38,840 bases of DNA, taken from NCBI GenBank assembly GCA_018712835.1, contig DVGF01000037.1:1-38840 (forward strand). Direction: 5' to 3'. This stretch comes from Candidatus Ventrenecus stercoripullorum. Its GTDB lineage: Bacteria; Bacillota_I; Bacilli_A; RF39; UBA660. Shown here piece by piece: positions 3,275 to 24,480 of this stretch (the first letter of the stretch is position 1; the number at the start of each line of letters is the position of its first letter). The position numbers and the translations under genes were made by a program. The notes beneath the pieces were generated by a model. That model worked only from the letters and a program-made list of their open reading frames with translations, did no database searches and was not told where the DNA came from.

Positions 3275-3718
3275 TTATTGTTTATGTTTGTTTTTTTGAA
3301 ATAAAAAGATTTGAAAATATGAAAGGATTCCTACTGCACTCCCACAAGAATCAATGGCAACATCCAATAGTCTTGGTGCTCTTCCGCCTATAAACATTTG
3401 ATGGAATTCATCGCTCGCAGCATAAAGAGCACAGAAAAGAAAAATCCAAATCAGGTTTTTGATTGTTAGCTTTTGATAGTTTTTTAAAAGATTGGCACAC
3501 AGTATTCCTAGAATTGCATATTCTGTAAAATGGGCTAGTTTACGAATAACAAATGATGCAACATTACTAGTTAACGGAATATGGATGATATCTTCTATTA
3601 TTTTTAATATTCCATTTGATACGTTAGAACTTTCAGGACCAGTTTGGTTGGAAAAAAGAAAGATAATCAAAAGCCAACTTATTAGTAAGACCCATGATAA
3701 TGCTTTCTTTTTATTCAT
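3275..3718 (-). CDS. VanZ-family membrane protein
   Basis: LIIFLFSNQTGPESS, RKLAHFTEYAILGIL, ALYAASDEFHQMFIGGRAPRLLDVAIDSCGSAVG are VanZ-like motifs. Confidence 0.85.
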   Translation of the reverse strand: MNKKKALSWVLLISWLLIIFLFSNQTGPESSNVSNGILKIIEDIIHIPLTSNVASFVIRKLAHFTEYAILGILCANLLKNYQKLTIKNLIWIFLFCALYAASDEFHQMFIGGRAPRLLDVAIDSCGSAVGILSYFQIFLFQKNKHKQ

Positions 3719-5189
3719 CTAAAACCTCATTTAATTTGTTTACTGCTTCGGTTACTGTTTCTAGTTTTGGTTGCATGACATATAGATTTTGATTTGGATA
3801 GCTATAGGTTGGTAGGTATGCTCCGGTACCATCGACATTGTAACTAGAAATGTTCCATGAAGCCATATCGTCTATTTGCATTTTTACTAAGCTTGTTATC
3901 TCATCCATTGTCATATTTGTTTCAAATGTTCCATCTAAAGCATTTAGGATATTTGTATAATTAGAAATAATCGTACTAGAGCTTGTTACTTTGTTAATGA
4001 TTAATTCGATTACTTGTTCTTGGTTTTCTCCACGATGTCTATCTCCAGTAGAATATGCATGACGTTCTCTTGCGAAAGCTAACGCACAATCTCCGTATAC
4101 ATAGTTATATCCTGGATTAAATGAACAATTTCGGTTGGTCCAGCAAGAGAAAGTATAATCAACATCTGAATAAATATTAATTCCACCAATGGCATCAACT
4201 AAATTTACAACGGCATTAAAGTTTACTCTTACATAGTAAGGGATATCTATTTCAAGTAAATCTTCAATAGTGGCCATTGTTAAATCTACTCCACCAATGG
4301 TTCCAGTATGAGTTAATTTATCACTGCTACTAGTACCATGCACTGTTACATAATAATCTCTTGGAATATGAACCATTAGCACTTTCTTAGTATTTGGATT
4401 CACAGCTAGAATAATGTTAACGTCACTTAAACTACGACTTGGTAATTTTCCGCTTCTCGTATCAATACCACTTAGATATACTACAAATGGTTCTTTTGTA
4501 ACATCTATTCCAGAAGAAGTATTCTCTACTTCTGTAGTGATTTCAATCGTATCTAATATTCTGACCTTTGACTCGTATTCTTCATCGTTTTGAACCATTG
4601 CATCGTAATTACCTGAGTTTACTAAGACAATTAATTCTGTGTTTTCTGTTACTTGTTCTAGTAAAGTTATAATATTTTCTTGGTATTCTATATTTACTGA
4701 TACTTTTTCTTTTAAAGCACTTTCTAGCGGGGACATATCTTCTTGGTCTTTATAAGAAGAAACGGTGTGGTCCGCAATATCGTTAATGCTCTGATATGAG
4801 GCATCTTTGTTTACGATAATGTTATAAATATTGGTTTCATAAGTTGCTCCTAAATTTGCTTTTAAAAAACTTATTGTCTCATTAATTTTTGTAACCGCAA
4901 ATCCTTCTAAACACATAAATGCAATTGCAAATATATTTAATATTACTAAGACCCATGTTCTAGTATTTTTCTTTAATATAAAGATACCGTGTAGTGATAA
5001 TAATATTACGAATACTACCACTACTATTAGGAAATATTTTAATGGTAGAACGTTTGCTGAGTATATGAAGTATCCTAGTACAATCATAAATAGAATGGAA
5101 ATAACCCATATTGCTATGCTAAACTTGTGCAATACTTTATTTTTCTTCTTTGTTTTTTTCTTTGCCATAATAAACCTCTTTCTCGTCAA
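3711..5189 (-). CDS. LytR-CpsA-Psr (LCP) family protein, cell-wall glycopolymer ligase
   Basis: YLSGIDTRSG, SDVNIILAVNPNTKKVLMVHIPRDYYV, FARERHAYSTGDRHRGENQEQVI. Confidence 0.92.
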   Translation of the reverse strand: MTRKRFIMAKKKTKKKNKVLHKFSIAIWVISILFMIVLGYFIYSANVLPLKYFLIVVVVFVILLSLHGIFILKKNTRTWVLVILNIFAIAFMCLEGFAVTKINETISFLKANLGATYETNIYNIIVNKDASYQSINDIADHTVSSYKDQEDMSPLESALKEKVSVNIEYQENIITLLEQVTENTELIVLVNSGNYDAMVQNDEEYESKVRILDTIEITTEVENTSSGIDVTKEPFVVYLSGIDTRSGKLPSRSLSDVNIILAVNPNTKKVLMVHIPRDYYVTVHGTSSSDKLTHTGTIGGVDLTMATIEDLLEIDIPYYVRVNFNAVVNLVDAIGGINIYSDVDYTFSCWTNRNCSFNPGYNYVYGDCALAFARERHAYSTGDRHRGENQEQVIELIINKVTSSSTIISNYTNILNALDGTFETNMTMDEITSLVKMQIDDMASWNISSYNVDGTGAYLPTYSYPNQNLYVMQPKLETVTEAVNKLNEVLDE

Positions 5190-5267
5190 TTTCTTTTTCT
5201 ATTATACTATAAATAAGGTTATTTTTCACAATATATTTTTGTAGAGTGTCAAGTAATAATACATTTT

Positions 5268-6434
5268 CTAATCTCTACTAAATAAGTCTCTTGTATATAC
5301 TTTATCTGATACATCGTTTAAACTATCATCATATCGATTCACTAGTATCACATCAGAAAGAGTTTTAAATTCATTAAAATCTTGAATTACTTTACTATTA
5401 TAAAATTCTCTTTCTTTTAAAGTTGGTTCATAAATGATGACTTCTACACCATTTGCTTTAATTTGTTTCATAACTCCTTGAATGGCACTTGCTCTAAAAT
5501 TATCTGAACCACTTTTCATCGTTAAACGATATATCCCCACTACTTTTGGATTCCTTTTTAATATCATTTCAGCAATGTGATCTTTTCTGGTTCGATTTGA
5601 TTCTACAATTGCGCTAATAAGATTTTCTGGAACATCTTTGTAATTAGCTTTTAATTGTTTGGTATCTTTTGGTAGACAATATCCACCATAGCCAAAAGAA
5701 GGATTATTATAATGAGTTCCTATTCTCGGGTCTAAACATACTCCTTCAATGATATCTTTCGTATTCAATCCTTTTAACTCCGCATAAGTATCTAATTCAT
5801 TAAAATAAGCCACTCTAAGTGCTAAATAAGTATTAGCAAATAACTTTACTGCTTCTGCTTCAGTATTATTCATATAAAGTACTGGAATATCTTCTTTCAT
5901 AGCACAAGATTGTAGCATTTCTACAAACACTTTCGCTCTTTCAGATTTTTCTCCCGCAATAATTCTAGATGGGTACAAATTATCATATAAAGCTTTTCCT
6001 TCTCTTAAAAATTCTGGAGAAAAGAAAATATTGTCGATTTGATATTTCTTTTTTACATTATCAATAAATCCCACTGGTATAGTAGATTTTACAACTATCG
6101 TAGTATCAATATTCATAGAAATTACTTTCGTAATAATATCTTCTACAGAAGATGTATCAAAAAAATTTTTCTCATCATCATAATTGGTTGGTGTACTAAT
6201 TATAATATAATCAGTATCACAAAAAGCTTCTTGATAATCCATCGTTGCTTTTAAATTCAACTCTTTTTCTCTAAAAAACTTTTCAATATATTCATCCTTT
6301 ATAGGACTAATTCTCTTATTTATTTTTTCTACTTTTTCTGGAACGATATCTAATGCTATTACTTCATATTTTTGACTTAGTAATGTTGCAAGTGATAAAC
6401 CTACATATCCTGTTCCTGCTACTGCTATTTTCAT
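5268..6434 (-). CDS. ugd: UDP-glucose 6-dehydrogenase / nucleotide-sugar dehydrogenase
   Basis: [20 protein letters not shown] Rossmann motif; [28 protein letters not shown]. Confidence 0.93.
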
Positions 6435-7909
6435 AAACTCTCTCTCTTTCTTGCATTTTTTTTCAAAAACATATCTATTTTAGGCTGTATTATTTCTAGA
6501 TAAAAATTACTTTTTAATAAAAGATGAATGCAAAAATAACCACCGATTGATAAAACTATTGCTACAAACGTCTTTAGGTACAATTGAGGAATCAAATAAG
6601 TACTCAACCCGCAGATAACGACAATCCAAAGACACCCAACAATAGAGCAAATAACGTTTTTGGAATCTAAATGAAATGGCACAATTTGTTTTGCTTTTAA
6701 CCAACAAATTATACACATTAAGATCTCAGATAATAATGTTGTTATAGCTGCTCCACAAATACCTAAAACAGGCAATAAAGCGAAATTGAGTAAGATATTC
6801 ATAGCCGAAGAAATTATTGACACAATTAATACGATTTTTTCTTTTTTATAATTAACTAAAATGGCATTTGCAAAAAAATAAGCGCAAGTAGCAAAAAGAA
6901 GTGATATGGACAATATCGCTAAAGGCTGATATGCACTGAGATATTCCTTGCCAGCAGCAATAAGGACAACTGGCTTACTTATCATAAACAAACCCATTGA
7001 TAAAGGCAAAATAAACACCATCACGACATTTAATACTTTATTCATAAATTCTGCAGAATCTTTTTGTTTGCTACCAATATAATAAGAAATTCTAGGTATT
7101 GATACTGCGATAATAGCGTTGACAAGTTGTTTAGCAATTGTATATATTTTTGCCGCAGCACTATAAAGTCCTACTGCATCATCTCCGTTCATAATCCCTA
7201 ATAAAGTAATATCTGAATTAATGTAAATTTGTTGCGAGAGCACACTGAAAAATAAAATTAAAATAGGTGTAATATGTTTTTTTAAATTCATATGAGGCGT
7301 AAAGTGAATTTTCAAATTTTTACGAGTTTTAAAATAATTTAATATATTTGCTCCACTACTAGATAGAACAACAATAAAAACATAGAAAGGTAAATCATTA
7401 GGAGTGTGCACAAATAAAAACATTAGAATAATAGATATTATTTGAAATATAATTGTCCGAAATGTAATATATTTAAATTCTTCATAAATAGACAATAACC
7501 AATCCATACCAATGGTATTAAAAATAATTGTAAAACTTAAGATAAATAAAAGTGCACGATACTCATGTAGTCCTGGTATAAAAAAAATAGTTGCCATTAA
7601 CACCCCAAATGCAATAAAAGTAGAAAAAAGATTAATAGAAAATACTTCACTTGCAAATTGACTCATTTTTTTACGATCCGATTTATACTGACTACCTTCA
7701 CGAATAGCGTAGCTTGAAATGCCCAAAGCTGCTAGCAAAACGAAGTAATTGACAATTGAATTACTAAATTGATATTTTCCATAATAATCTACTCCTAAAG
7801 TTCTTGAAATATATGGAAAGGTAATAAGCGGAAAAAGAATGTTTAGTACTGCTCTAATACCATTCATTATAGCATTCTTTGTTAATGATTTTTTTTTCAA
7901 TACAATCAC
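6431..7909 (-). CDS. Polysaccharide flippase (MATE/Wzx-like)
   Basis: Multi-TM protein; [35 protein letters not shown]. Confidence 0.9.
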
Positions 7910-7911
7910 TC

Positions 7912-8640
7912 CTATTTAATTTTGTATAATTTTAATTTACTTAATATTATTTTAGCATAATATTTTATTTTTGAGTCATGATATCTTTTACCAGTAGATC
8001 CAGAAATTCCTCTCACTTTAGGCAAAATAGGGAACATTTTATATACAATCTTTTGTTTTAAAATGATATTTTTAAAAATATGTTCCAACCATATATCTTT
8101 TTTGTCATTTACTTTAAGATAACAATTAATAAAATTTCTTTCATAGACTGACTTTTGAATCATATAAAAGCGTGTTTCACACCTTCTAGTTTTAGTCATA
8201 TCAAAATAATTGCAATGATTAGAGCAAAGTTTTAAAAGTGTGTTAATATTGGTAACATAGAGGCGCCCTGTTATTTTAATTAGATAATCCATATTTTTAA
8301 TCAATTTACTATTATTTAAAATATATTTTATAATCTCTCCTTCTCCGTATCCTTTTCCATGACGAACTGTTTCAGATGTATTTCCGTGAAAAGACAGGTA
8401 TTCGAATTGTTTTTTATATTTCGTTGCTAATTTTTCTAAATAAGAAAGATTAGATATTATGGTATTAGAATTATCACAATAAATTATATTCTTAAGTTTA
8501 GTTTTTGCGATATAGAAAAGTAAAGCGTCAAAATATTGTTTTTCTCTCTCTGTTTTACCTTTCAAAGCTAGTGAAAACACTTTTTCATTAGGTTTTATAG
8601 TACTGGTTATTAATAAAACTGTTTTCTCTAATTTTAGCAT
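7912..8640 (-). CDS. Hypothetical glycosyltransferase-like protein of the polysaccharide locus
   Basis: GKGYGEGEIIKYILNNS...YLIKITGRLYV; start at 8640 (MLKLEKTVLL) more plausible than 8730. Confidence 0.6.
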   Translation of the reverse strand: MLKLEKTVLLITSTIKPNEKVFSLALKGKTEREKQYFDALLFYIAKTKLKNIIYCDNSNTIISNLSYLEKLATKYKKQFEYLSFHGNTSETVRHGKGYGEGEIIKYILNNSKLIKNMDYLIKITGRLYVTNINTLLKLCSNHCNYFDMTKTRRCETRFYMIQKSVYERNFINCYLKVNDKKDIWLEHIFKNIILKQKIVYKMFPILPKVRGISGSTGKRYHDSKIKYYAKIILSKLKLYKIK

Positions 8641-8644
8641 ATGA

Positions 8645-9586
8645 TTAATTCCTTTCATTTGAATTATCGACAATAATCCATTTTTTTCTAACAGGGAATA
8701 ATCGATATTGTTTTCCGTCCCAAGAGGCATATCTTGGCGCTACAACTTCTTGGCTTTTTATAGTTGATAAATATGCTCCCCAAAAAGAAAAGGTGCTATT
8801 TGAAATAACTATACTCTTAGCTTTGCTCATCATATACATATCGATTTTACTTTGGGTAATATCATGTGAGATAATTGCGTCAATTGTGTAGTTTTTAAAA
8901 AAATTTTTGGCATATTCAACATCATCTGTAAAAATAACTAACGGTAAATTATTAGGATTAATAATATCTAGAGCCTTTTTATAGTAGCTTATATCACATA
9001 AGTTATATTTAGCGTTTAAAAAGTCTCCACCTCTAACATGTACAGCCACTACTTCCTTAGAAGACAATTTTTTTAATAACTTTTTATCAAAATCTGAAAG
9101 TTTACTTTCTAATGAAAAAATATTTATTAGTTCATCTCGATAAGGTTCGAAATAATCAGTCCTTTGCCAAAATCCCCTTAAATACCAATCTCCATTTTGT
9201 AGTTCATCAATTTTATCTACATAATTATTTTGAGAATCATCATATATTGTTTTTTTGGCTTTTTTACGAAATATTCTATTCATTATTGATAAGTATTTAT
9301 TTTGAAAATTATGTAGTATAAAACGTTTTATGTTTTTTGGGAGTTTTTGACATTTTTTACTATAAATTAAGCCATTGTATACTTTTCTAAAATCTGCTTT
9401 TGATGCGAGTTTTATTTTTATTTTAAATACATTATCCAACTCAAATCCATTATGTTCATGCTCAATATTATAATGAAAATTTTCTCCTTTGATAACTTGG
9501 CTAGGATATTTCCTTGTTAAAGAATACTGCATTGCGTACTGAAACATTTGGTTTCCTAAGCCACCACAATATCTTATTACAATCAT
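8645..9586 (-). CDS. Glycosyltransferase family 11, alpha-1,2-fucosyltransferase-like
   Basis: IRYCGGLGNQMFQYA, VAVHVRGGDFLN, FTDDVEYAKNFF, SNSTFSFWGAYLS. Confidence 0.88.
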   Translation of the reverse strand: MIVIRYCGGLGNQMFQYAMQYSLTRKYPSQVIKGENFHYNIEHEHNGFELDNVFKIKIKLASKADFRKVYNGLIYSKKCQKLPKNIKRFILHNFQNKYLSIMNRIFRKKAKKTIYDDSQNNYVDKIDELQNGDWYLRGFWQRTDYFEPYRDELINIFSLESKLSDFDKKLLKKLSSKEVVAVHVRGGDFLNAKYNLCDISYYKKALDIINPNNLPLVIFTDDVEYAKNFFKNYTIDAIISHDITQSKIDMYMMSKAKSIVISNSTFSFWGAYLSTIKSQEVVAPRYASWDGKQYRLFPVRKKWIIVDNSNERN

Positions 9587-9604
9587 TATTTATTCTCCTT
9601 TCTT

Positions 9605-10399
9605 TTAACGAAAAATGCTAAAAACATGTTTGATTATTTGCTTTATGAGTTTCCATAACGTTAATTTTTCAAATTTATGTAAGTATAGTATTAGTGGTAG
9701 TTTTGGTGTATTATGCCTAGTTTTTTTGTATATATAATTTTTATCGTTTTTATACGATTTTGGAAAAAGACGCCGTTGCGAAATATCTTTAAATACTGGT
9801 ATTTCATATTTTTTGCATAATAAACTAAATACTGATTGATCTTCTCTATGAGAAATAAAGTATGATTTTTCTTTATCATTGTCAGCTGGACTAATCACAG
9901 CATAATCGCAGCAATACATCAACCATTCTTTCATAAACTTTCTAACTGCAGGAGTATTTTTGACGCAAAAATAGGTAGCTATCACTTGATTTGACTCGTA
10001 ATATCTTTTTTCAGTGCATTTCATTTTAAAGAAGGCTTCACTTTTCGTGAATTGCTTTTCTATTAATGGAATATCGAAAACTATCATATCATATTTTTCT
10101 GTATAACTTGTTACTTTTTTTATATTTCCTATAAAAAAAGCTCCTGAGTCACAATACATCAAAATGTCATTTTCTTCTAATTCATTTAAAACACGATTTA
10201 TAATATATGGTTTCCACAACCATAACCCGTTTCCTCTTTTTATATCTAATATTTTTTTGTGCTTTTCGTAAAATGATTTTTCTATATTTTCTGGCCCAAA
10301 AGATAGGACTTTATCTGCCCCAAATTTATAGGCTGTTTTAGTATTCAACTTCTGAACACTTTTATATTTATCATTTGCGTAGTTAACAACATAAACCAT
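9605..10399 (-). CDS. Putative glycosyltransferase-like/capsule biosynthesis protein
   Basis: GNGLWLWKPYIINRVLNELEENDILMYCDSG pattern; position in the GT cluster. Confidence 0.5.
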   Translation of the reverse strand: MVYVVNYANDKYKSVQKLNTKTAYKFGADKVLSFGPENIEKSFYEKHKKILDIKRGNGLWLWKPYIINRVLNELEENDILMYCDSGAFFIGNIKKVTSYTEKYDMIVFDIPLIEKQFTKSEAFFKMKCTEKRYYESNQVIATYFCVKNTPAVRKFMKEWLMYCCDYAVISPADNDKEKSYFISHREDQSVFSLLCKKYEIPVFKDISQRRLFPKSYKNDKNYIYKKTRHNTPKLPLILYLHKFEKLTLWKLIKQIIKHVFSIFR

Positions 10400-10408
10400 T
10401 TTCGTTTC

Positions 10409-11227
10409 CTACTTTCTTAAAAAAATCCGGATATAGGGTGATAAACTACATTTAAAAGCCACTAAAATATTAAAGTTCTTTTTATAATAATAGAAAGACT
10501 GGTGAAATGGAAGGCCTTTCGGAGAGTTCAACAAAAATAATCTTTTTTTAAAAGAAAGTTTTTTATCTTCCCATGTATTGGCTTTAGAATTTCGATTACA
10601 TTTTCCTACAAATTCATTGTAAACAAGTAATTTATACTTTTTTCTTGAGTATTCAAGTCCATAATCAAAGTCACCAAAAGAATGAACATAATGATTATCC
10701 ATTGCCCCGACAATTTTAAACCATTTATATGGAATTAAGACGCAGTTTCCATTAAAGGTATTACAAAGAATGTGTTTTTTTTCGGGGCCTATGCGTTCAA
10801 AGTCCGATGAAAACTTGGAGTGAAATAAGATCCCACCATAAGATAATTTACCCTTTTCATCTTCGCAAGCACCTATTGTAATGCAATTATGGAGTATTTG
10901 AAAGTCTATCATTTTTTCTAAAAAGCCATGATAAAAATCAACATCATCATTTACCATCAATAAATAGTCATATTGTTTTTTTAAATTCAATAAATAACTC
11001 ATTCCGTAATTCATGCTTTTAGAATAGTAATAGTTTCCTTTTGTTTGTAAAATATGAAGATTTTTTTTATTTAATTTTTTTAATTCTTGCAATGTATTAT
11101 CAGTACTTTTATCATCGATCACAAAAAAATCAATTTTTACACCTTTTTCATTGTCAATTTCCTGGACCGCTCGTTTAGTCGTATTGCATCGATTGAAACA
11201 TGTGAATAAAACTGCTATTTTTTTCAT
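10409..11227 (-). CDS. Family 2 glycosyltransferase
   Basis: IAVLFTCFNRCNTT, FFVIDDKSTDNTL, LLMVNDDVDF. Confidence 0.85.
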   Translation of the reverse strand: MKKIAVLFTCFNRCNTTKRAVQEIDNEKGVKIDFFVIDDKSTDNTLQELKKLNKKNLHILQTKGNYYYSKSMNYGMSYLLNLKKQYDYLLMVNDDVDFYHGFLEKMIDFQILHNCITIGACEDEKGKLSYGGILFHSKFSSDFERIGPEKKHILCNTFNGNCVLIPYKWFKIVGAMDNHYVHSFGDFDYGLEYSRKKYKLLVYNEFVGKCNRNSKANTWEDKKLSFKKRLFLLNSPKGLPFHQSFYYYKKNFNILVAFKCSLSPYIRIFLRK

Positions 11228-11230
11228 AAC

Positions 11231-12274
11231 TTACTCCTGTTCTCTATTCTTTAGAAAATTAAAAACTTTTATCATTATATAAACGATTAAAAACATTTGA
11301 TGTCTTGCAGACCAAACAAAGGCTTTTAGTGGAATACTTAAATCACAATACTTCACATTATAAAATCCTTTTTGAATCTGTTTTAACTGATAGGCTTTTT
11401 TTAACTCTTTTATTTTGGCAAATAATCCTGAAGGATTGTCTTTATGTACAATCCCAATGCGACTGCCCTCAATATATAATAAAACGGTTTTTAAGAAAAT
11501 GGCTTCTTCCAACTCATGTTTCTCATCAAATTTATACATCTCTTCTAAAACATTCGAAAATGTTATAAAAATGTTTTTATTAAATTTAATAGTTGAAGAA
11601 TTATAATTGATTCTGTAATGATATAAGAAGTTATTTTGATATACAACTTTTTTGGCTAATGACATTGCATAAAGATTAAAAATAACATCTTGCATTCTTT
11701 GAAGTCCTACTTTGAAAGTCAATTGATTCTTTATCAAAAATTCACGATTATACATTTTTGCCCATGGTCCTCCTGCTCCTATATATGTCTTTTTAGCACT
11801 ATGATATTGGCGGCAAATAATATTCAGTAGTAACTTTCGTTTATTTTTTTTAGTAAATGTTATTTTCTTACCAAAAATACTGGCAGGTATTTTTTGCTTA
11901 CGAAACTCCATGATTGGTGGAGTTATAGCGATTTCACAACCTTCATTTTTAATTATAGAATATAGGGTTGATAGCATCTTACTATCAACGTAATCATCAG
12001 AATCGACAAAACAAATCCATTTTCCATTTGAAAGTTCTATTCCTTTATTTCTAGCAACTGAAACTCCCTGATTTTTTTGTTTATATGTTCTCACATTTTG
12101 ATATTTTCTGCTATATTGCTGGCATATTTTGTAAGATGAGTCTGTTGACCCGTCATCGATTAATAAGATTTCATAATTTTCATAATCTTGGGAAACTAAA
12201 CTTTTAATACATTCTTCTAAGTATTTTTCAACATTATAAACGGGAACAATAATTGATATCTTCTCATTTTTCAT
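11231..12274 (-). CDS. Family 2 glycosyltransferase
   Basis: ISIIVPVYNVEKYLEECIKSLVSQDYENYEILLIDDGSTDSS, WICFVDSDDYV. Confidence 0.93.
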   Translation of the reverse strand: MKNEKISIIVPVYNVEKYLEECIKSLVSQDYENYEILLIDDGSTDSSYKICQQYSRKYQNVRTYKQKNQGVSVARNKGIELSNGKWICFVDSDDYVDSKMLSTLYSIIKNEGCEIAITPPIMEFRKQKIPASIFGKKITFTKKNKRKLLLNIICRQYHSAKKTYIGAGGPWAKMYNREFLIKNQLTFKVGLQRMQDVIFNLYAMSLAKKVVYQNNFLYHYRINYNSSTIKFNKNIFITFSNVLEEMYKFDEKHELEEAIFLKTVLLYIEGSRIGIVHKDNPSGLFAKIKELKKAYQLKQIQKGFYNVKYCDLSIPLKAFVWSARHQMFLIVYIMIKVFNFLKNREQE

Positions 12275-12286
12275 GCAAATTCCTCC

Positions 12287-13384
12287 TTAATCCTGAAAAA
12301 AAGTTGTGTATATATCATATCCGGCTCGAACAGCCCCTGAAGATGATTGATAATATACACCTTGATAAACGAGCATGCCACATATAAAAAGAGTAATCCA
12401 TAAAGTTTTATACTTCTGTTTTTTTAAAAATTCGTTTAGTAAAGGTGGTATTAATAAAACATAATAAATATATAAGTAAGTGGTTAATCTCGCTAAAATA
12501 TAGGAGCGAACAACAAGTAGCTGCAATAATGTGCAGAAAAAAACTAAATTATATAAATAAATATTTTCCTTATTATTTTTTGTGATTTTTCGGTAAAAAT
12601 AATAAGATACACCAAACATTAAAATCCTAATAACAAGGTTATATATAGAACTCAGTTCGGTCACATCAAAGCTACTACCAAAATAAATTCTTCCATAATA
12701 AGTATTAGAAATAAGTTCTTTTAACCAGTCAAAGCCTAAAAATACTGCAAGCGCAATTCCACTATATATTCCCAAAGCTTTTATATTTAATTCTTTTCCT
12801 ACAAAAAAGTACAATGGCAACATTATAAAGGCCGAAGTATGAATTAGTCCAGCCATACTCACAAAAATGAAATATATCCAGAATTGCCGTTTTTTTATAT
12901 ATTTAAAAGCATAAAAAGTGAGAGCGATAGCAAGCATCTGCCGAAATTGATTAAATATTTGAAACGGTAAACAAAAGCAAAATAAAATAAAAAGTGATAA
13001 CGCCGGGTTTTTGCTATTATCCCAAATTCCTTTGTACAGCAAGAATAAAGTAGCTAAATTAATGACTGCGAAAACTCCATAATAATTTCTTCCAAATACA
13101 AAACTTAAAAGATAACATATTGCTTTAAATCCTACAGACCACCACTCTTCTTGTCTAGCATCTAGAGTATTATCTAAAAATGACAAATAGGTTTGTGCAT
13201 ATGTTTCATAGTCTTGTCCAACTTTAATTCCACGAAAAATAAGCAGTAGTGCAAATGGTAAAAATGATAATATCAAAAAGATATACATTCTTTTCTTGCT
13301 TTTTTGTTCATTCTTTTTAGCTATGAACATTGATCCAATAGCAATAATTTCACAAATAATATATATTATAATGGTATATATCAT
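12287..13384 (-). CDS. EpsG-family/Wzy-like polysaccharide polymerase
   Basis: Multi-TM; FRGIKVGQDYETYAQTYLSF, FNQFRQMLAIALTFYAFKYIKKR, LIHTSAFIMLPLYF. Confidence 0.85.
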   Translation of the reverse strand: MIYTIIIYIICEIIAIGSMFIAKKNEQKSKKRMYIFLILSFLPFALLLIFRGIKVGQDYETYAQTYLSFLDNTLDARQEEWWSVGFKAICYLLSFVFGRNYYGVFAVINLATLFLLYKGIWDNSKNPALSLFILFCFCLPFQIFNQFRQMLAIALTFYAFKYIKKRQFWIYFIFVSMAGLIHTSAFIMLPLYFFVGKELNIKALGIYSGIALAVFLGFDWLKELISNTYYGRIYFGSSFDVTELSSIYNLVIRILMFGVSYYFYRKITKNNKENIYLYNLVFFCTLLQLLVVRSYILARLTTYLYIYYVLLIPPLLNEFLKKQKYKTLWITLFICGMLVYQGVYYQSSSGAVRAGYDIYTTFFQD

Positions 13385-14238
13385 CTTCTTCCCACCTTCA
13401 TTCCAATATATCTTGCGGCCATATCAAACGGAAACCTCACCAGCACTTTTATATTACCTTCTTTTATGGCTCTTTTTAGTACGTATTTTGCAAGGCCACC
13501 ACCAGACTTGGTTGTACCAAACTCATCTAAATAACTATTTTGTTTCATGAATTCTCCTGTTAATTTATAACGATTGTATAATTCTTTCAAAGTAAAATTA
13601 TGAGAATGATAGACAACGCTATCGCTTTCATAACTGATTTTGTAACCATTCATAATGAGTTTATAAGCGATGTACATATCTTCATTTGTTGGAAGTTTTT
13701 TTCCGTCGTATCCCTTTAACTTTTTATAAACACTTGTTTTTATTGCACTAGAAGCATCGCTAAAAAAGAATGTATTTAGTCCAAGACGTTTGATATCACT
13801 TTTTGAAACTATTCTAGAAGTTGCTGGATAGTTTTTCTCACGTGTATATTTTTCGATATTGTTATATTTTGTAATTTGCCTAGAAAAAGCCGCGGCTACT
13901 TTGCCACTTGCAATATTTTTAGTAAGCTCATATAACCACTCATCGCTTTCGATTACAATATCTTGGGTAATAAATACTAAGATATCACTTTTACTTTTCA
14001 TGGCAGCAGTCTCTCTAGTAAGACTATGAGAAAACTCACTTTTTTTAATTTTTGTATATTTTATCTTATTTTTCTTTAATATTTCTTCTGTATGATCTTT
14101 GCTTTCAGTCATTAAATAAAAAATATTTTTTATTGCGACTTTCTTTTGCTTTTTTATAGACTCATTTAGCTTTAAAATATAGTCTTCTGCATTATACAAA
14201 GGACAAATAATATCTATTTGCATGGTATCACCTATCAA
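13381..14238 (-). CDS. Family 2 glycosyltransferase (rhamnosyltransferase-like)
   Basis: IDIICPLYNAEDYILKLNESIKKQ, FITQDIVIESDEWLYEL, DASSAIKTSVYKKLKGYD. Confidence 0.85.
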   Translation of the reverse strand: MIGDTMQIDIICPLYNAEDYILKLNESIKKQKKVAIKNIFYLMTESKDHTEEILKKNKIKYTKIKKSEFSHSLTRETAAMKSKSDILVFITQDIVIESDEWLYELTKNIASGKVAAAFSRQITKYNNIEKYTREKNYPATSRIVSKSDIKRLGLNTFFFSDASSAIKTSVYKKLKGYDGKKLPTNEDMYIAYKLIMNGYKISYESDSVVYHSHNFTLKELYNRYKLTGEFMKQNSYLDEFGTTKSGGGLAKYVLKRAIKEGNIKVLVRFPFDMAARYIGMKVGRR

Positions 14239-14362
14239 TTTCTAAAAGTATTGTATCATTTATTTGGCGTCTTGTAAAAACAATTGTCAAGTTCTTTACT
14301 CTCTTGTTTTTGGTGTATTTTAACTACTCTATGCTATAATAAGTTTAGAAAGAAGGGTTTTT

Positions 14363-15844
14363 ATGGTTCAAAGAGTTCAAAATGAGGTTTATGACTTTGG
14401 AAATTCTTGCAAACATTTTTGGAAAAAGTATCGAACACCACTTCTTGTGTTGTCTTTATTATTACTTTTATCCATTAGCTCTATTTTAAGGGCAAATTTT
14501 AAATACGTTGATGATATTGGAAGAACCGTGAATGGATATCGCGGTTGGTCTAACTTTAGTCGTTATTTATCTAGCTTTTTCAGTATCTTTTTGCATGGAG
14601 ATACTTACTTAACTGATATTTCTCCCCTCCCACAAGTGCTTGCTATTTTTGTGATGGGTATTAGTAGTATTCTTCTTCTTCATTTATTTTCTAACGGGAA
14701 AAAGATTACTTTTTGGAATATTCTTGCTATTATTCCACTTACTATTAATCCTTATTTTTTAGAGTGTTTATCTTATAAGTATGATGCTCCTTATATGGCA
14801 ATTAGTATTCTTTCAAGCATCGTTCCATTTTTATTTTATAAAAAGAATAAAGTATTATTTGGTATCTCTTCTTTTTGTGGGCTACTTATCATGTGTCTTA
14901 CTTATCAAGCATCTTCTGGGATTTATTTACTCTTGATACTCTTCTATGCGTTTTTGTTATACAAAGAGGATACGAATTGGAAGAAAATTGCTTCTTTTAT
15001 CCTTTATGCAGGAGTTCTTTATCTTGGTAGTCTTCTTGTTTATAAACTGTTTTTTATGCAACCGGTAGAGGATTATGTCAGCAATACTATCTTTCCTCTT
15101 TTGGAGTTACCTGGGGGATTTCTTCGGAATTTAAGTACTTATTATGATTTGTTATTTCATGATTTTAAAGTGGAATGGCTTATTCTCATTGGAATTTTAG
15201 TCATTGGTTTTCTTGTTGCTACTACACTGACAGCTAAGAAACATAAAGCACTTACATTTCTTGTTACATTATTCGTTCTTGCTTGTTCTGGTCTTGTTTT
15301 GTTTGGTATTTATCCAGCATTTACTAGTCCATTATTTTCACCACGTGCTATGTATGGATTTGGGGTATTTTTAAGTCTTGTCATGATTCAAATTTCTAAT
15401 TTCAAACAGTGTTACATACTAAAAATAATTAGTTTCGCACTATGTTGGTGTTTCTTTGCCTTTTCATTTACTTATGGAAATGCTCTTTCTGAACAAAAGG
15501 ACTATACGGAGTACCGCATGTATTTGGTAGCCAATGATTTAAATCATTTAGAAATTATGAACAGCCAGCAAATAAAACAAGTAAAGATTGTTGGGGATAT
15601 AGGACAAGCTCCTGTGATCCGTAATATGCCACAGGATTATCAATTATTAAATCGGCTTATTCCCTCTACTTTTGGTGGTGGAAATGTTTGGAGTAGCGCT
15701 TATTTCTTTAGTTATCTTGACTTAAAAAACTTGACGATTTCGACAGATGATAGTTTATTAGAACTTGATTTACCGGTGCTAGTCGATACGATGTATCATG
15801 AAATTAGAGGCGATGATGCACATATCATCATCACTTTAAAATAA
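14363..15844 (+). CDS. GtrII-like multi-TM glucosyltransferase family protein
   Basis: NFKYVDDIGRTVNGYRGWSNFSRYLSSFFSIFLHG, many TM segments; AAGAAGGG upstream. Confidence 0.75.
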   Translation: MVQRVQNEVYDFGNSCKHFWKKYRTPLLVLSLLLLLSISSILRANFKYVDDIGRTVNGYRGWSNFSRYLSSFFSIFLHGDTYLTDISPLPQVLAIFVMGISSILLLHLFSNGKKITFWNILAIIPLTINPYFLECLSYKYDAPYMAISILSSIVPFLFYKKNKVLFGISSFCGLLIMCLTYQASSGIYLLLILFYAFLLYKEDTNWKKIASFILYAGVLYLGSLLVYKLFFMQPVEDYVSNTIFPLLELPGGFLRNLSTYYDLLFHDFKVEWLILIGILVIGFLVATTLTAKKHKALTFLVTLFVLACSGLVLFGIYPAFTSPLFSPRAMYGFGVFLSLVMIQISNFKQCYILKIISFALCWCFFAFSFTYGNALSEQKDYTEYRMYLVANDLNHLEIMNSQQIKQVKIVGDIGQAPVIRNMPQDYQLLNRLIPSTFGGGNVWSSAYFFSYLDLKNLTISTDDSLLELDLPVLVDTMYHEIRGDDAHIIITLK

Positions 15845-15873
15845 GGATGGAACTATTTTGCTCCATCCTTTTT
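15845..15873. terminator. Bidirectional terminator between convergent genes
   Basis: GGATGGA-actattttgc-TCCATCC-TTTTT; its left arm begins directly after the GtrII stop and the hairpin overlaps the last codons of the sugar transferase. Confidence 0.8.
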
Positions 15874-16524
15874 AAATACTGCTATAAATGTTTTAAACAT
15901 AATTTTTAAATCTAGAAGAATTCCACAGTGGTCAATATAATATAATTCCATTTTGATTCTTTCTTTATAGGTTGTGTTACTTCTACCATGACTAGCCCAG
16001 TATCCAGTAAGTCCCGGTCTTAAAGATAAGAATTTATTTTTTTGTTTTCCATATTTTTTTACTTCATCTGGGACAACTGGTCTTGGACCTATTAATGACA
16101 TATCGCCAAGAAAAATATTTAGAAATTGTGGAAACTCATCTAAACTTGTTTTTCTTAAGATATTCCCTACTTTGGTAATTCTTGGGTCATTATCAATTTT
16201 GCGGTCTCTTAAATACTCTTTTCTTTTTTCTGGATTATTTTTCAGCCAATCTTCTAATATTTCTTCGGCATTCACAACCATAGTTCTAAATTTAAAGATG
16301 CGAATTTCTTTACCATGCTTTCCTAATCTCTTTTGACGATAGAAAATACTATGAAAATCTCCACTAAGAAGATATAGAACCTTTACAAATATCATTAGAG
16401 GTACTAAAAAGAGAATTCCTATGAAACTTATTAAGACATCAGCGACTCTTTTTAATACAAAATATAAATATTTTACTTGGAATGGCTCTACTACATCTGA
16501 AGTTATCGCTATTTCTTTATCCAT
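15853..16524 (-). CDS. Initiating undecaprenyl-phosphate sugar transferase (WcaJ/EpsL-like)
   Basis: KRVADVLISFIGILFLVPLMIFVKVLY, FYRQKRLGKHGKEIRIFKFRTM, LRKTSLDEFPQFLNIFLGDMSLIGPRPVVPDEV, LRPGLTGYWASHGRS. Confidence 0.93.
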   Translation of the reverse strand: MDKEIAITSDVVEPFQVKYLYFVLKRVADVLISFIGILFLVPLMIFVKVLYLLSGDFHSIFYRQKRLGKHGKEIRIFKFRTMVVNAEEILEDWLKNNPEKRKEYLRDRKIDNDPRITKVGNILRKTSLDEFPQFLNIFLGDMSLIGPRPVVPDEVKKYGKQKNKFLSLRPGLTGYWASHGRSNTTYKERIKMELYYIDHCGILLDLKIMFKTFIAVFKKDGAK

Positions 16525-16738: not shown

Positions 16739-18844
16739 ATGAAAAAAATATTATTTGTTTTAAGCATGGCATTTCTTTTACTATTCAGTAAGAATTGTAA
16801 TGCTGCAGAAATTTCTTCGTCTTTTGATCGAACGTTTATTGGTAATTACCACTATGTTTCGCAAAATGGACGATTTGGAGATTTCGAATTGTTTCAAAGA
16901 AGGGAAGATGATCGAGTTGCTTATTGCATTGAACCCAATTCTTCTTTTACTTCTTCGGAATATCAAGGGGCTTATGACTTATCAAATCAAGAACTAGCAA
17001 ATAAAGTTGGAATTACGGAAAATCAATTGCAAAGAATTAGTTTGATTGCTTACTTTGCATATGGCTATGAGGGACATAATAGTTCTCAATGGATCGTGGC
17101 AGCACAAGCTAAAATTTGGGAAGTGTTAGGACATTCATTTCAATTTACTAGTCGTAATTCTTCAGTAAATCCTTGGGCTTATGTGATTCCAACTCCGCCT
17201 GAAATACAAGAGAAGATGGATATTTTAGAAGGGCTTGTTCAAAGTTACTATTCTACCCCGGCAATTAATGGAGCAAATCTTACTATTCCTGTAGGAGAAA
17301 GATACACAATTAGTGATAGCTCTTTGCCATTGTATCAATTACAAGGAGATTTTCCTGGCGTTAGTAAAAGTGGTAATACTTTATTTATTACGCCAAAGGA
17401 GGAAGGAAATGTCACAGTTACATTAAAACAAGAGCTTTATATTTATAGTACTCCTTTCATGGTTTACTATCATAACAGTAGTCAAAACTTATTGTTAACA
17501 GGGAATGTTCCGGGTCAAGAAATTTCGTTTTCTTATCAAGCTGTTTCTGGAAGAGCAGAAATTTTAAAACACGATAAGGATACTAAGAGTTGTTACTCTT
17601 CTATTGGCAAAACGATGGGAAATGCCATTTACGGGCTTTATAAAAGCGATGGAACTCTAGTTCAAAAAGTTACCGTTTCTAATTGTATGGGAATAGCAGA
17701 TCAGTTGGCTTTAGGAGAATATTATTGGCAAGAAATAGAACCACCAGAAGGATATCTTTTGGATACACAGAAATATTATTTTGCGATTACAAGAGAAAAT
17801 ATTATGGATACTCAAAGAATTCAAGTATATGATGAGGAAGACATAAAAACTATCTCTATTCACAAAGAATATCTCAAAGAAAACGAAACTTTGATGCCAG
17901 AAGAGAATGTGAAGTTTGAAATTATCAACAAAGAAACCAATCAAATTGTAGCTACTTTAATTACGGATAAAAATGGCTTTGCCAGTACAACTCTTCGATA
18001 TGGGACGTATATCATTCGTCAAGTAAGTGGAACACCAGGATATCACTATATCGAGCCAGAGGAGTTTGTCGTTGATAAAAATACCCAAAAGGAATTTACC
18101 TACTCCTTTGTTAACAAACCGATTTTAAAAAATATCAAGGTTCTAAAAAAAGATGATAATCTTAAAAATCCGATTTTACAAAGTGGTATAAAGTTTAAGT
18201 TATATGACGTTGTTAATCAAAAATATATCTGTCGGAATGAGGATTGTACTTTTGAAACAAATGAGTATGGAGAACTTATCATAGAAGACTTGTACTACTC
18301 TACTTATCGTTTGGAGGAAATCAATCAAGAGTTGCCTGGATATCTTTGGAACCAAGAGGGATTGGAATTTATTATTGATGATAATAGTCCCGAAGAAATT
18401 CTTTTAGAATTTTATAATCAACCTGTTCAAGGGGAAATTGTTATTTCTAAGAATGATGGAAACGGCTTACCTTTATCCGACGTCGTATTTCAAGTCTTTG
18501 CCAAAGATGATATTTATCAAAACGAGGTGCTACTCTATCACAAGGGTGAACTTGTAGCAGAAGTAACTACGAATAAGGATGGAAAAGCTTCATTAAGTGG
18601 ACTTCCTTTAGGCATTTATACTGTCACAGAAATTAGAACGCAAGATGGATATCAGTTAGATACACGTTCTTATGAGGTTATACTAGAATATCTTGACAAT
18701 CAGACATCTATTGTTTATGGAAATCTAGAGCTTGTAAACTATAAAATACCGGAAACAAAAAGGAATCGATTTGATGTTTCTTTCACTATGTTCTTGTTAG
18801 GAATAGGTTTTTACTTGTATGAAAAAAAGTATTTTTGTTTGTAG
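16739..18844 (+). CDS. Secreted surface protein: N-terminal thioester (TQXA-like) domain plus four SpaA/Cna-B-type repeats and atypical C-terminal sorting signal
   Basis: Signal peptide; YCIEPN and AAQAKIW thioester-type Cys/Gln motifs; repeats ending YYWQEIEPPEGY, YIIRQVSGTPGY, YRLEEINQELPGY, YTVTEIRTQDGY; C-term IPETKRNRFDVSFTMFLLGIGFYLYEKKYF. Confidence 0.82.
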   Translation: MKKILFVLSMAFLLLFSKNCNAAEISSSFDRTFIGNYHYVSQNGRFGDFELFQRREDDRVAYCIEPNSSFTSSEYQGAYDLSNQELANKVGITENQLQRISLIAYFAYGYEGHNSSQWIVAAQAKIWEVLGHSFQFTSRNSSVNPWAYVIPTPPEIQEKMDILEGLVQSYYSTPAINGANLTIPVGERYTISDSSLPLYQLQGDFPGVSKSGNTLFITPKEEGNVTVTLKQELYIYSTPFMVYYHNSSQNLLLTGNVPGQEISFSYQAVSGRAEILKHDKDTKSCYSSIGKTMGNAIYGLYKSDGTLVQKVTVSNCMGIADQLALGEYYWQEIEPPEGYLLDTQKYYFAITRENIMDTQRIQVYDEEDIKTISIHKEYLKENETLMPEENVKFEIINKETNQIVATLITDKNGFASTTLRYGTYIIRQVSGTPGYHYIEPEEFVVDKNTQKEFTYSFVNKPILKNIKVLKKDDNLKNPILQSGIKFKLYDVVNQKYICRNEDCTFETNEYGELIIEDLYYSTYRLEEINQELPGYLWNQEGLEFIIDDNSPEEILLEFYNQPVQGEIVISKNDGNGLPLSDVVFQVFAKDDIYQNEVLLYHKGELVAEVTTNKDGKASLSGLPLGIYTVTEIRTQDGYQLDTRSYEVILEYLDNQTSIVYGNLELVNYKIPETKRNRFDVSFTMFLLGIGFYLYEKKYFCL

Positions 18845-19361
18845 TTTCTTCTTTCTTTGTTTTATGCTTTGTAGTTTTGATAAAATTGAAACGAAAATCA
18901 TAGAGCAAGAAAATCAAGAGCTAGTTCAAAATTATTTTACTAATGATCTAAGTGCTACAATCCAAAAAGAGCAGTATTTAGGTGTACTAGAAATTCCAAA
19001 GATTTCTTTGAAAAGAGGTTTTTACTCTTACTCTTCTGACAACAATACGGTAGAAAAAAATATTCAAGTTATTTCTCAGAGTTGTCTACCAAATGATACT
19101 TGTGATTTCATATTGGCAAGTCATTCAGGTACTAGTAACATTTCCTTTTTCAAGCATCTACATCAATTAGAAGAAAATGATACGGCTTTTCTTTATTATA
19201 ATAACCAAAAGTATGTTTATCGACTTATTGATATTAAACACGTGATGAAAAACGGAACAATTCAAATAATTAGTACCAATGAACCAAGACTTATTTTAAC
19301 CACTTGTAATCTGGATGATGACAATTTACAAGATGTCTATTATTTTGAACGAGCTTCATAA
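18819..19361 (+). CDS. Sortase
   Basis: Membrane anchor; LGVLEIPKISLKRG; LASHSG (His), LILTTC (Cys), DVYYFER (Arg). Confidence 0.88.
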   Translation: MKKSIFVCSFFFLCFMLCSFDKIETKIIEQENQELVQNYFTNDLSATIQKEQYLGVLEIPKISLKRGFYSYSSDNNTVEKNIQVISQSCLPNDTCDFILASHSGTSNISFFKHLHQLEENDTAFLYYNNQKYVYRLIDIKHVMKNGTIQIISTNEPRLILTTCNLDDDNLQDVYYFERAS

Positions 19362-19401: not shown

Positions 19402-20562
19402 TCATAAACTTAACGTATATGGGTCGCTTGATGTGCCTGTTCCTTCTGTGATTTTGACACTAGATAAAAGATATAAAGTAGGTTTCACATCAAACGATGC
19501 ATCTACATATCTAGATTCTATATTTCCATTATACGTATTCACATAATATGCCTTCATTGATGACATCGTACTCATTGTCCAATAATGGCTTCCTGCATAT
19601 AACCAATCGTTATTATAACAATTAGCATAATTACTCCAATTATCTAATGGATATGATAAACACTCTGTTCTATTTATAGTAGAATCTCCTGAAGTCGCAA
19701 ATCCATAATCCGAAGGATATACTAACCCAACCTTTCCAGTCCAGGTAGAAGGATTATCTCCGAATACTGTAGATAACCTTTCTTGCGTATAAAACACAGC
19801 CGGGGTATTAGAAGTATTAGAAATTCCACCTAAATTCCATAACACGGTATCTATCATTTCTTGATATAAGCTTGTAATAGTATTAACATAAGTATCATTT
19901 AGTTCTTTTTCTATCTCTGAAATATTCCAGTTTGAAGTTTCATATTCCCAACGATATGACCCTATGGATTCGTTTCTGATAATTTTTAGTCTTGTTTCCT
20001 TTGTACCACTTCCATTATCTATGTTATTCATGACTCCAATAATTCGCCATAGTTCTCCATTGAATGATACATAATTATTAGGATTAGCACCGATATATCT
20101 TAGGTTGTTATCGGAAGTTTCATCATATACTAAATCGTTTGTATTATCTGCCAAATCTTTTATAAAATCTACCGCTGTTGAGTCTTTTTTAAAATACATC
20201 GTACACTTTGTTCTACTCATGTTCGTTGCTTGGTAATTGGTAAAATTAATTGCGGCACTCCAACTCTCATTATCCCAAGACACTGTTGCCCCATTCGTAC
20301 AGCTACTTTGTGATGCATCAAAACTATATCCGTCCTCTTTTTTTGGGAATGTATTGGTAATCTCACCATCCACATACACTGCAAAGTATAAATCTCCGGG
20401 GTCTTGATACATTCCGTTAATTATATTAAATTCTTTTTCTTCTGTGAATACAGCAAATGATGTATACAAGAATGCGCCTGCTAGTAATATCACACAACAG
20501 ACTGTAAAAATTATCATAAATCTTTTTTTCTGGTTTTTCTCTTTAAATTTCTCTAATTTCAT
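19402..20562 (-). CDS. Secreted/membrane-anchored hypothetical surface protein
   Basis: KRFMIIFTVCCVILLAGAFLYTSFAVF anchor; YVSFNGELWRIIGVM; C-terminal STMSSMKAYYVNTYNGNIESRYVDASFDVKPTLYL. Confidence 0.65.
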   Translation of the reverse strand: MKLEKFKEKNQKKRFMIIFTVCCVILLAGAFLYTSFAVFTEEKEFNIINGMYQDPGDLYFAVYVDGEITNTFPKKEDGYSFDASQSSCTNGATVSWDNESWSAAINFTNYQATNMSRTKCTMYFKKDSTAVDFIKDLADNTNDLVYDETSDNNLRYIGANPNNYVSFNGELWRIIGVMNNIDNGSGTKETRLKIIRNESIGSYRWEYETSNWNISEIEKELNDTYVNTITSLYQEMIDTVLWNLGGISNTSNTPAVFYTQERLSTVFGDNPSTWTGKVGLVYPSDYGFATSGDSTINRTECLSYPLDNWSNYANCYNNDWLYAGSHYWTMSTMSSMKAYYVNTYNGNIESRYVDASFDVKPTLYLLSSVKITEGTGTSSDPYTLSL

Positions 20563-23105: not shown

Positions 23106-24480
23106 CAGGATAAACGCATGAAAATTTAAATCATGTGTTTTTTTCTAATAATTTGGCAATATCATTTGTATTTAGTAATTTAAACACATTTTCTATTTCT
23201 TTTTCAAAATCTATAGATAATAAAAATCTAATTTTATTTAAACTCAAATTATAATATGTTTGTACAAACTTTAAAACCGCTAAACAAATTCTCTTCAATA
23301 TTCCTAAATTTTTTGCACCATTTTTTTCTAATGTTCTATTAGCATCTTCTTTAAATACTATATCTAATGGGGCATGTAAATTATTTTCTACTCCCCAATG
23401 CTTTCTTACCGCATCTGCAAATGAATGAATATCATCTTTAAAACTAATTATAAAGTATCTATTTTCTTCAGTTACTTCACCAGTTTGTATTGATTCAATT
23501 GTTTTTTTCTCAACTCCTATAGATTTTAACTTTTCCCACTTTTCTTTATTTTCTAACCAGGATATTTTACTTGTCATATAATATTTTCTTGTGATAATTT
23601 TACTATGTGATTTTTCAACATCTTCAGCATAATTTTCTTTTTTTATCTCTTTTAATATATCGATATCATCTAAATAATCTTTTACATCATCATAAAATGT
23701 TTTCTGATTCTTCTTTAATGCTAAAACATAATCTCCATGTGCTTCTTTGATTGCTGAAACCGTCTCTTTTTGAGTATTTAGGGCATCTGCTGTTAATATA
23801 CAATTTGTTAAATCTAACTTTTTTATTAGTTCTGGTCCCATAGGTATTTCATTACTTTTATCTTCTATATAATCTTGTACTAAGGATACTCCATAATTAT
23901 GGGAATAGATACTCATTGTATTTAATGCTTTTATTTCTTCGGTATTTTCTTTATTTCTACCACTCCCTTTGGTAACTTTTCCATCCATAGATAATACATC
24001 TTTTAAAGATTCGTCTTTTGTTAATTCATCTATTTTTTCTATTAAAAATTTTATACAACTACTATATAAAGTTTCTGGATTTAATAATGAAATTACTCTT
24101 TGCATTGTATCGTGAGAAGGTATACCATTTGGAAGTTCAAGGAATTTATTTAGCCATTCTTCTTTTGATTTTGCAAACATTGCAATTTCATCCCAGCCAT
24201 CACATCTTGCTAGGATTGCTAAAAAACAAATCATTATGATATCACTCATCAAGTGTTTTACTTTGCCTTGCATTCTTGTGTCATTTTGATCTTTAAATAT
24301 AATCATAAAATTTTGCAGTTCATTTGTTTCTATTTGGTTTAAATCTATTTCTGTGTCTTTAAACATTGCTTTTATTTCCTCCAACTTTTTACACTTCTTA
24401 GCCATACTTCACCAACTTTATTCTTTGCATTTATTATACATGAAAAAAACGCATTTTCAAAATTTCATGCGTTTATCCTG
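23106..24480 (-). mobile_element. Complete ISAs1-family insertion sequence, 1375 bp, with 9-bp TSD GTCTTACTG (23097-23105 and 24481-24489)
   Basis: Terminal IRs CAGGATAAACGCATGAAA at both ends (right end inverted); exact 9-bp direct repeats flank it. Confidence 0.92.
23131..24405 (-). CDS. ISAs1-family (H-repeat-type) transposase
   Basis: VLSMDGKVTKGS, ILTADALNTQKETVSAI, YVLALKKNQKTFYDDV, HWGVENNLHAPLDIVFKEDANR (DDE residues present). Confidence 0.92.
   Translation of the reverse strand: MAKKCKKLEEIKAMFKDTEIDLNQIETNELQNFMIIFKDQNDTRMQGKVKHLMSDIIMICFLAILARCDGWDEIAMFAKSKEEWLNKFLELPNGIPSHDTMQRVISLLNPETLYSSCIKFLIEKIDELTKDESLKDVLSMDGKVTKGSGRNKENTEEIKALNTMSIYSHNYGVSLVQDYIEDKSNEIPMGPELIKKLDLTNCILTADALNTQKETVSAIKEAHGDYVLALKKNQKTFYDDVKDYLDDIDILKEIKKENYAEDVEKSHSKIITRKYYMTSKISWLENKEKWEKLKSIGVEKKTIESIQTGEVTEENRYFIISFKDDIHSFADAVRKHWGVENNLHAPLDIVFKEDANRTLEKNGAKNLGILKRICLAVLKFVQTYYNLSLNKIRFLLSIDFEKEIENVFKLLNTNDIAKLLEKNT

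Follow-up and report, generated by a model that had tools for sequence, protein, structure and literature searches.

The structures 6fwv (BaTIE) and 6fx6 (SaTIE) belong to class II TED proteins (PMC8092201, PMC9210967). For the thioester, Walden et al. assigned the reactive Cys to a [YFL]C motif and its Gln partner to a weak motif of a later strand, and found the Gln of the TQxxPhiW helix to be dispensable for the thioester (PMC4450167). The thioester pair of TIEpLS20 is Cys68-Gln256 (PMC8092201). The motif list of a large adhesin survey omits [VI]PxT sorting signals except for IPxTG (PMC9210967). The catalytic triad of sortases is described as ubiquitous and includes an Arg; whether this Arg stabilises the oxyanion or positions the substrate is a matter of debate (PMC9520033). 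In S. pyogenes SrtA, the carbonyls contacted by this Arg are those of P4 and P3 rather than P1, and the R216A variant is inactive; the Thr before the Cys is the likelier oxyanion helper (PMC9520033). An evolved S. aureus SrtA, in which Arg is changed to Ser, works on LMVGG; the study that cites this enzyme prefers to see Arg as a substrate-binding residue (PMC9520033).

Here, we analysed a stretch of 38,840 nucleotides from Candidatus Ventrenecus stercoripullorum (the window), in which an adhesin gene overlaps a sortase-family gene. Sequences and structural models make it quite likely that both genes form a covalent-adhesion module, whose sortase comes from a clade that uses Gln171 in place of the catalytic Arg. 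As a whole, the module joins an adhesin of a known kind to a variant enzyme, and the Arg-to-Gln clade is its strongest point. The replacement across a clade is absent from a first-pass annotation of the same DNA and is now the main point. A large sortase group with Gln at the Arg position is apparently undescribed. A literature search, in which subscription journals were not covered, found nothing relevant on Arg-less or substrate-fused sortases, so the novelty is provisional.

The adhesin and its overlapping sortase gene

The first-pass annotation described an adhesin and a sortase gene with a 26-bp overlap, which is borne out by the two open reading frames (Table 1); its interpretation of them holds in part. 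We infer that the overlapping genes are translationally coupled. The adhesin carries, in this order, a predicted signal peptide, a thioester domain, four SpaA domains, the IPETK motif, a membrane helix and a basic end. Upstream of it lies a polysaccharide cluster (3711-16524) with LytR-CpsA-Psr, flippase, glycosyltransferase, GtrII and sugar transferase genes, and a transposase is encoded at 23131-24405. On the reverse strand, 19402-20562 encodes a protein of 386 aa that starts with a membrane segment and lacks a Pfam match; a similar sequence on contig C34 (L242) makes this a small unknown family.

Table 1. Positions of the module's features in the window
Feature	Position	Strand	Basis or remark
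Thioester/SpaA adhesin gene, 701 aa	16739-18844	+	stop included in coordinates
Predicted signal peptide, residues 1-22	16739-16804	+	sequence and model helix 2-16
Thioester domain, approx. residues 24-260	16808-17518	+	Pfam and model fold match (6fwv, 6fx6)
Codon of thioester Cys63 (YCIE)	16925-16927	+	Cys invariant 23/23
Codon of candidate thioester Gln249 (SSQNLLL)	17483-17485	+	invariant 23/23; motif position per PMC4450167
SpaA repeat 1	17546-17833	+	Lys277, Glu332, Asp365; profile and alignment
SpaA repeat 2	17846-18118	+	Lys376, Gln428 for Glu, Asn459; alignment
SpaA repeat 3	18128-18418	+	Lys470, Glu527, Asn560; Cys498/Cys503; profile and alignment
SpaA repeat 4	18431-18739	+	Lys571, Glu631, Asn667; profile and alignment
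Sorting motif IPETK, residues 670-674	18746-18760	+	P and T invariant 23/23
Membrane helix of sorting signal, residues 680-699	18776-18835	+	model helix
Sortase-family gene, 180 aa, N-terminal membrane helix	18819-19361	+	profile match and model
Overlap of adhesin and sortase genes, 26 bp	18819-18844	+	ORF coordinates; overlap kept in relatives
Codon of catalytic His102	19122-19124	+	His 144/144
Codon of Lys144	19248-19250	+	Lys in 142/144 rows; near-invariant in Gln clade only
Codon of catalytic Cys163	19305-19307	+	Cys 143/143 complete rows
Codon CAA of Gln171 at catalytic Arg position	19329-19331	+	alignment

The TED profile (PF08341) matches the adhesin with 27.2 bits against a cut-off of 22 (Pfam). 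The AlphaFold model of the adhesin (mean pLDDT 88) has the Bacillus anthracis TIE protein 6fwv as its best fold match (E 1.5e-30) and also matches the SaTIE TED 6fx6 with a TM-score of 0.72 by target length. The thioester Cys is present in a [YFL]C motif (YCIE), and Cys63, Gln123, Trp127 and Gln249 are all invariant among 23 aligned adhesin homologues. Both thioester motifs named at first pass, YCIE with Cys63 and AAQAKIW with Gln123 and Trp127, are present. As thioester partner, however, Gln123 was ruled out, since it belongs to the structural TQxxPhiW helix motif (PMC4450167). The predicted bond Cys63-Gln249 is supported by the invariance of both residues in the 23 homologues and by the reactive positions described previously (PMC4450167). 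Its spacing of 186 resembles that of Cys68-Gln256 in TIEpLS20 (188). The residue before Gln249 is a Ser and not hydrophobic, although Gln249 itself is invariant and well spaced from Cys63.

As first annotated, the adhesin carries four SpaA-like repeats, which the Pfam profile PF17802 matches in four stretches with 149.5 bits. The Lys-Glu-Asn triad is complete in repeats 3 and 4. In the window adhesin, repeat 1 reads Lys-Glu-Asp and so also has the full Lys-Glu-Asn/Asp set, whereas 19 of 23 aligned sequences have Glu at the position of Asp365. Repeat 2 of the relatives shows Lys, Gln and then Asn or Asp, with Gln in all 21 sequences that have a residue there. The Gln noticed earlier at the E-box (YIIRQVSG) is thus real but not a one-off. 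Cys residues had also been pointed out in the repeats; the pair in repeat 3 is conserved (20/23 and 18/23), whereas that in repeat 1 is not (5/23 each). To judge from these residues, the four repeats may not all be cross-linked, because in relatives the last position of repeat 1 is mostly Glu, and Gln stands for Glu in repeat 2.

The C-terminus of the adhesin consists of KIPETKRNRFDV, a hydrophobic helix and EKKYF, as described before, and ends in EKKYFCL. The usual tail layout of motif, hydrophobic segment and basic end is present, with a modest tail hydropathy of 1.46. The pentapeptide LPXTG is absent from this C-terminus, and IPETK stands in its place. PxT was found in the tails of 132 partner proteins, preceded by V in 110 and by I in 13 of them. 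The residue after T in these tails is G (35), L (18), S (14), E (13), K (12), D (11) or another one. The first-pass description of the signal as non-canonical agrees with the absence of LPXTG; the new specificity suggested with it is putative. IPETK as a special motif was ruled out: it is one instance of a family signal [VI]PxT followed by a variable residue, of which Lys is an ordinary one. Since [VI]PxT, but for IPxTG, is outside the survey list (PMC9210967), wall anchoring of these gut-bacterial adhesins has probably been overlooked.

Among 291 sampled genomes from the same uncultured Bacilli family, 214 contain relatives of the adhesin and 209 relatives of the sortase. A co-directional upstream neighbour is present next to 140 of 144 clade sortases; 132 sortase genes overlap it, and 126 of these 132 overlapping partner genes lie in the same relative frame. 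TED was found by Pfam in most partners checked. The closest named relative, Candidatus Ventrenecus avicola, has the same gene order, with 71% identity for the adhesin, 74% for the sortase and the signal VPETK. Against this relative, the adhesin has a dN/dS of 0.13 and the sortase part one of 0.05; with dS above 1, only the purifying sense of these values is safe. In two different MAG contigs, L103 (1914-4868, minus strand, 984 aa; the same gene as in L032) and L165 (1713-5402, plus strand, 1229 aa), adhesin and sortase form one open reading frame, with assembly or frame errors being possible. The order in both is signal, helix, basic turn, helix and sortase. Two predicted membrane segments with a basic turn would fit, as expected, an outside-inside-outside hairpin. 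Separately, L101 and L105 contain TED adhesins without an adjacent sortase, beside single-strand-binding-like genes (compare TIEpLS20); L101 additionally has membrane proteins reminiscent of conjugation genes.

The own genome (82% complete) encodes three sortases and one TED, and SpaA is confined to the window. Following a suggestion of the first-pass annotation, other xPxT substrates were searched for in this genome with a tail profile. This gave a single matching tail (E 3.6e-13), and the next hit (E 0.06) lacks the motif; at 82% completeness, further substrates may be missing. The family-wide overlap, the two fusions and the single matching tail in this incomplete genome give good support to the earlier proposal of a dedicated one-substrate sortase. 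On contig C42 (L001:744-1902), a 174-aa secreted protein ending in RQTGAS, a helix and KKK overlaps an Arg-type sortase by 8 bp, possibly as another private substrate/sortase pair with a signal that lacks Pro. On contig C62 (L002:1480-3036), a protein of 518 aa has a long N-terminal region and ends in a class B-like sortase domain.

A sortase clade with Gln at the catalytic Arg position

Homology of the second gene product to the sortase superfamily is clear, with 47.5 bits for PF04203 (cut-off 26.6; Pfam) and 44.6 bits for TIGR01076 (cut-off 39.35). The NCBIfam cut-offs for individual sortase classes were missed (C, 50.1 vs 160 bits; D, 52.3 vs 165; E, 31.6 vs 160). The model (pLDDT 93) shows a sortase barrel behind a single N-terminal helix, and its top PDB matches are sortases, for example 4d70 (E 2.2e-10), with class C enzymes among the better ones. 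The standard Cys-His-Arg triad is absent.

Gln in place of Arg was recorded for the window gene and for the loci L068-L107 and L108-L187. The clade set comprises 144 unique sortases, 143 of which are complete; among these, the Arg column holds Gln in 141, Tyr in one and Phe in one. Thr162, before Cys163, is kept in nearly all aligned clade sortases. Strand beta6 ends with Lys144-x-Gly146, which is nearly invariant within the Gln clade but not beyond it, and Lys144 is without counterpart in the Arg-bearing sister group. By their clade-profile score, sequences separate into one group of at least 110 bits (clade) and another of at most 90 bits (outside). Complete sequences of the lower group carry Arg, read by eye; for low-scoring class C-type sequences, where the automatic alignment was off by at least one position at the Arg column, reading by eye replaced it. 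An alignment slip instead of a substitution was ruled out, as the V-x-x-A-x-L strand follows Gln and Arg at equal distance, with no gap in between. Arg is also present in the two other sortases of the own genome and in other class members.

In the tree, the Gln-bearing sortases form one clade of single origin (support 100/99), and the single origin stands in a tree built without everything after Cys. The sister group consists of six Arg-bearing sortases from the same bacterial family (joint support 99/95), five of which adjoin proteins with MPxTY, MPxTF, MPxTD or MPxTS tails. These Arg-bearing sister sortases beside MPxT[YFDS] proteins (L106, L107, L227, L228 and L232) form a natural comparison set. 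The idea that the variable residue after Thr is an effect of Arg loss was unsupported, since Tyr, Phe, Asp and Ser also occur in the Arg-bearing sister group. No clade-level match was found outside this one uncultured Bacilli family in the class and phylum genome samples.

Proposed mechanism and alternatives

After export, the adhesin would be held by its C-terminal helix. The sortase from the overlapping gene may then cut after Thr673 (IPET|K), and the acyl-enzyme on Cys163 would join the adhesin to an amine of the cell envelope, most likely of lipid II or peptidoglycan. The SpaA domains would serve as stalk, and a Cys63-Gln249 thioester of the N-terminal domain could form an amide bond with the target. 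In the sortase, Gln171 would replace Arg, probably by hydrogen bonding to substrate backbone carbonyls, perhaps with help from the clade-specific Lys144. Gln is able to donate hydrogen bonds of the kind that Arg gives to the carbonyls of P4 and P3. S. aureus SrtA reportedly tolerates citrulline well at the position of Arg197, which would fit a hydrogen-bonding role. Purifying selection and the invariant His and Cys argue for an active enzyme. On balance, we consider it likely that these proteins constitute a natural sortase class with a Cys-His-Gln site, each dedicated to one thioester adhesin and fused to it in some lineages.

Without Arg, the protein might have lost catalysis and only bind or escort the adhesin tail as a pseudo-sortase, with another sortase of the cell doing the anchoring. 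S. pyogenes SrtA cannot do without its Arg (PMC9520033), and two Arg-bearing sortases are encoded in the own genome. Unlike a decaying active site, however, His, Cys and the Thr before Cys are conserved in more than 140 diverged members. The purifying selection on the sortase (dN/dS), the intact sortase part of the fusions and the C42 sortase, whose own overlapping candidate substrate is another protein, also make such a loss of function quite improbable. It is rather unlikely, too, that the enzyme is active with Lys144 or a Lys/Arg of the beta7-beta8 loop in the role of Arg and that Gln is of minor importance. In its favour, Lys144 is kept almost throughout the clade but missing from its Arg-bearing sisters, and the two members without Gln carry Tyr or Phe. 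A neutral position should vary, yet Gln is retained in 141 of 143 sequences over deep divergence. Moreover, a takeover by Lys overlaps with the preferred reading, replacement of Arg by Gln171, which itself leaves room for Lys144 as a helper.

Pilins typically contain SpaA domains, and the better structural matches include class C sortases, so that the sortase could be a pilus-type polymerase linking adhesin molecules into a fibre. The C-terminal membrane segment usual in class C is, however, present in 0 of 141 clade members compared with 12 of 26 other sortases. Lid-like motifs are few (7/141) and no YPKN-type pilin motif was found in the adhesin, which renders polymerisation very unlikely. 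That the sortase processes canonical signals encoded elsewhere and lies beside the adhesin by chance seems hardly credible: the genome is incomplete and other substrates could be missing, but the overlap with PxT adhesins is family-wide, two adhesin-sortase fusions exist, and one tail matches in the own genome (82% complete).

Comparison with known systems

More than 100 natural Arg-less sequences, together with an Arg-bearing sister group beside related adhesins, make the role of Arg directly testable. The clade may also yield sortases with a relaxed need after Thr, useful in protein ligation. If the fused lineages are true, one polypeptide combines a sorting signal with the enzyme that reads it.

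The adhesin shares with the class II TIE adhesins (BaTIE 6fwv, SaTIE 6fx6, TIEpLS20) an N-terminal TED with YCxx, a central QxxPhiW helix, the Cys-Gln spacing and a CnaB/SpaA stalk, and with BaTIE also a C-terminal membrane helix. It differs in having IPETK instead of LPXTG, a private overlapping sortase gene and Gln for the catalytic Glu in repeat 2. Class D sortases (Clostridium perfringens SrtD 4d70, Bacillus anthracis SrtD 2ln7) are the best profile relatives of the enzyme, with the same sortase barrel, an N-terminal anchor only, and His and Cys. Gln for Arg, Lys144-x-Gly146, the [VI]PxT substrates and the missed NCBIfam class D cut-off set it apart from them. Class C pilus sortases are likewise encoded beside SpaA-domain substrates; here, in contrast, the C-terminal membrane segment and a pilin motif are absent, Gln replaces Arg and there is one substrate. 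The directed-evolution S. aureus SrtA (LMVGG; PMC9520033) is also a sortase without Arg. That enzyme, however, is a laboratory product with Ser and proven activity, whereas the sortases described here form a natural clade with Gln.
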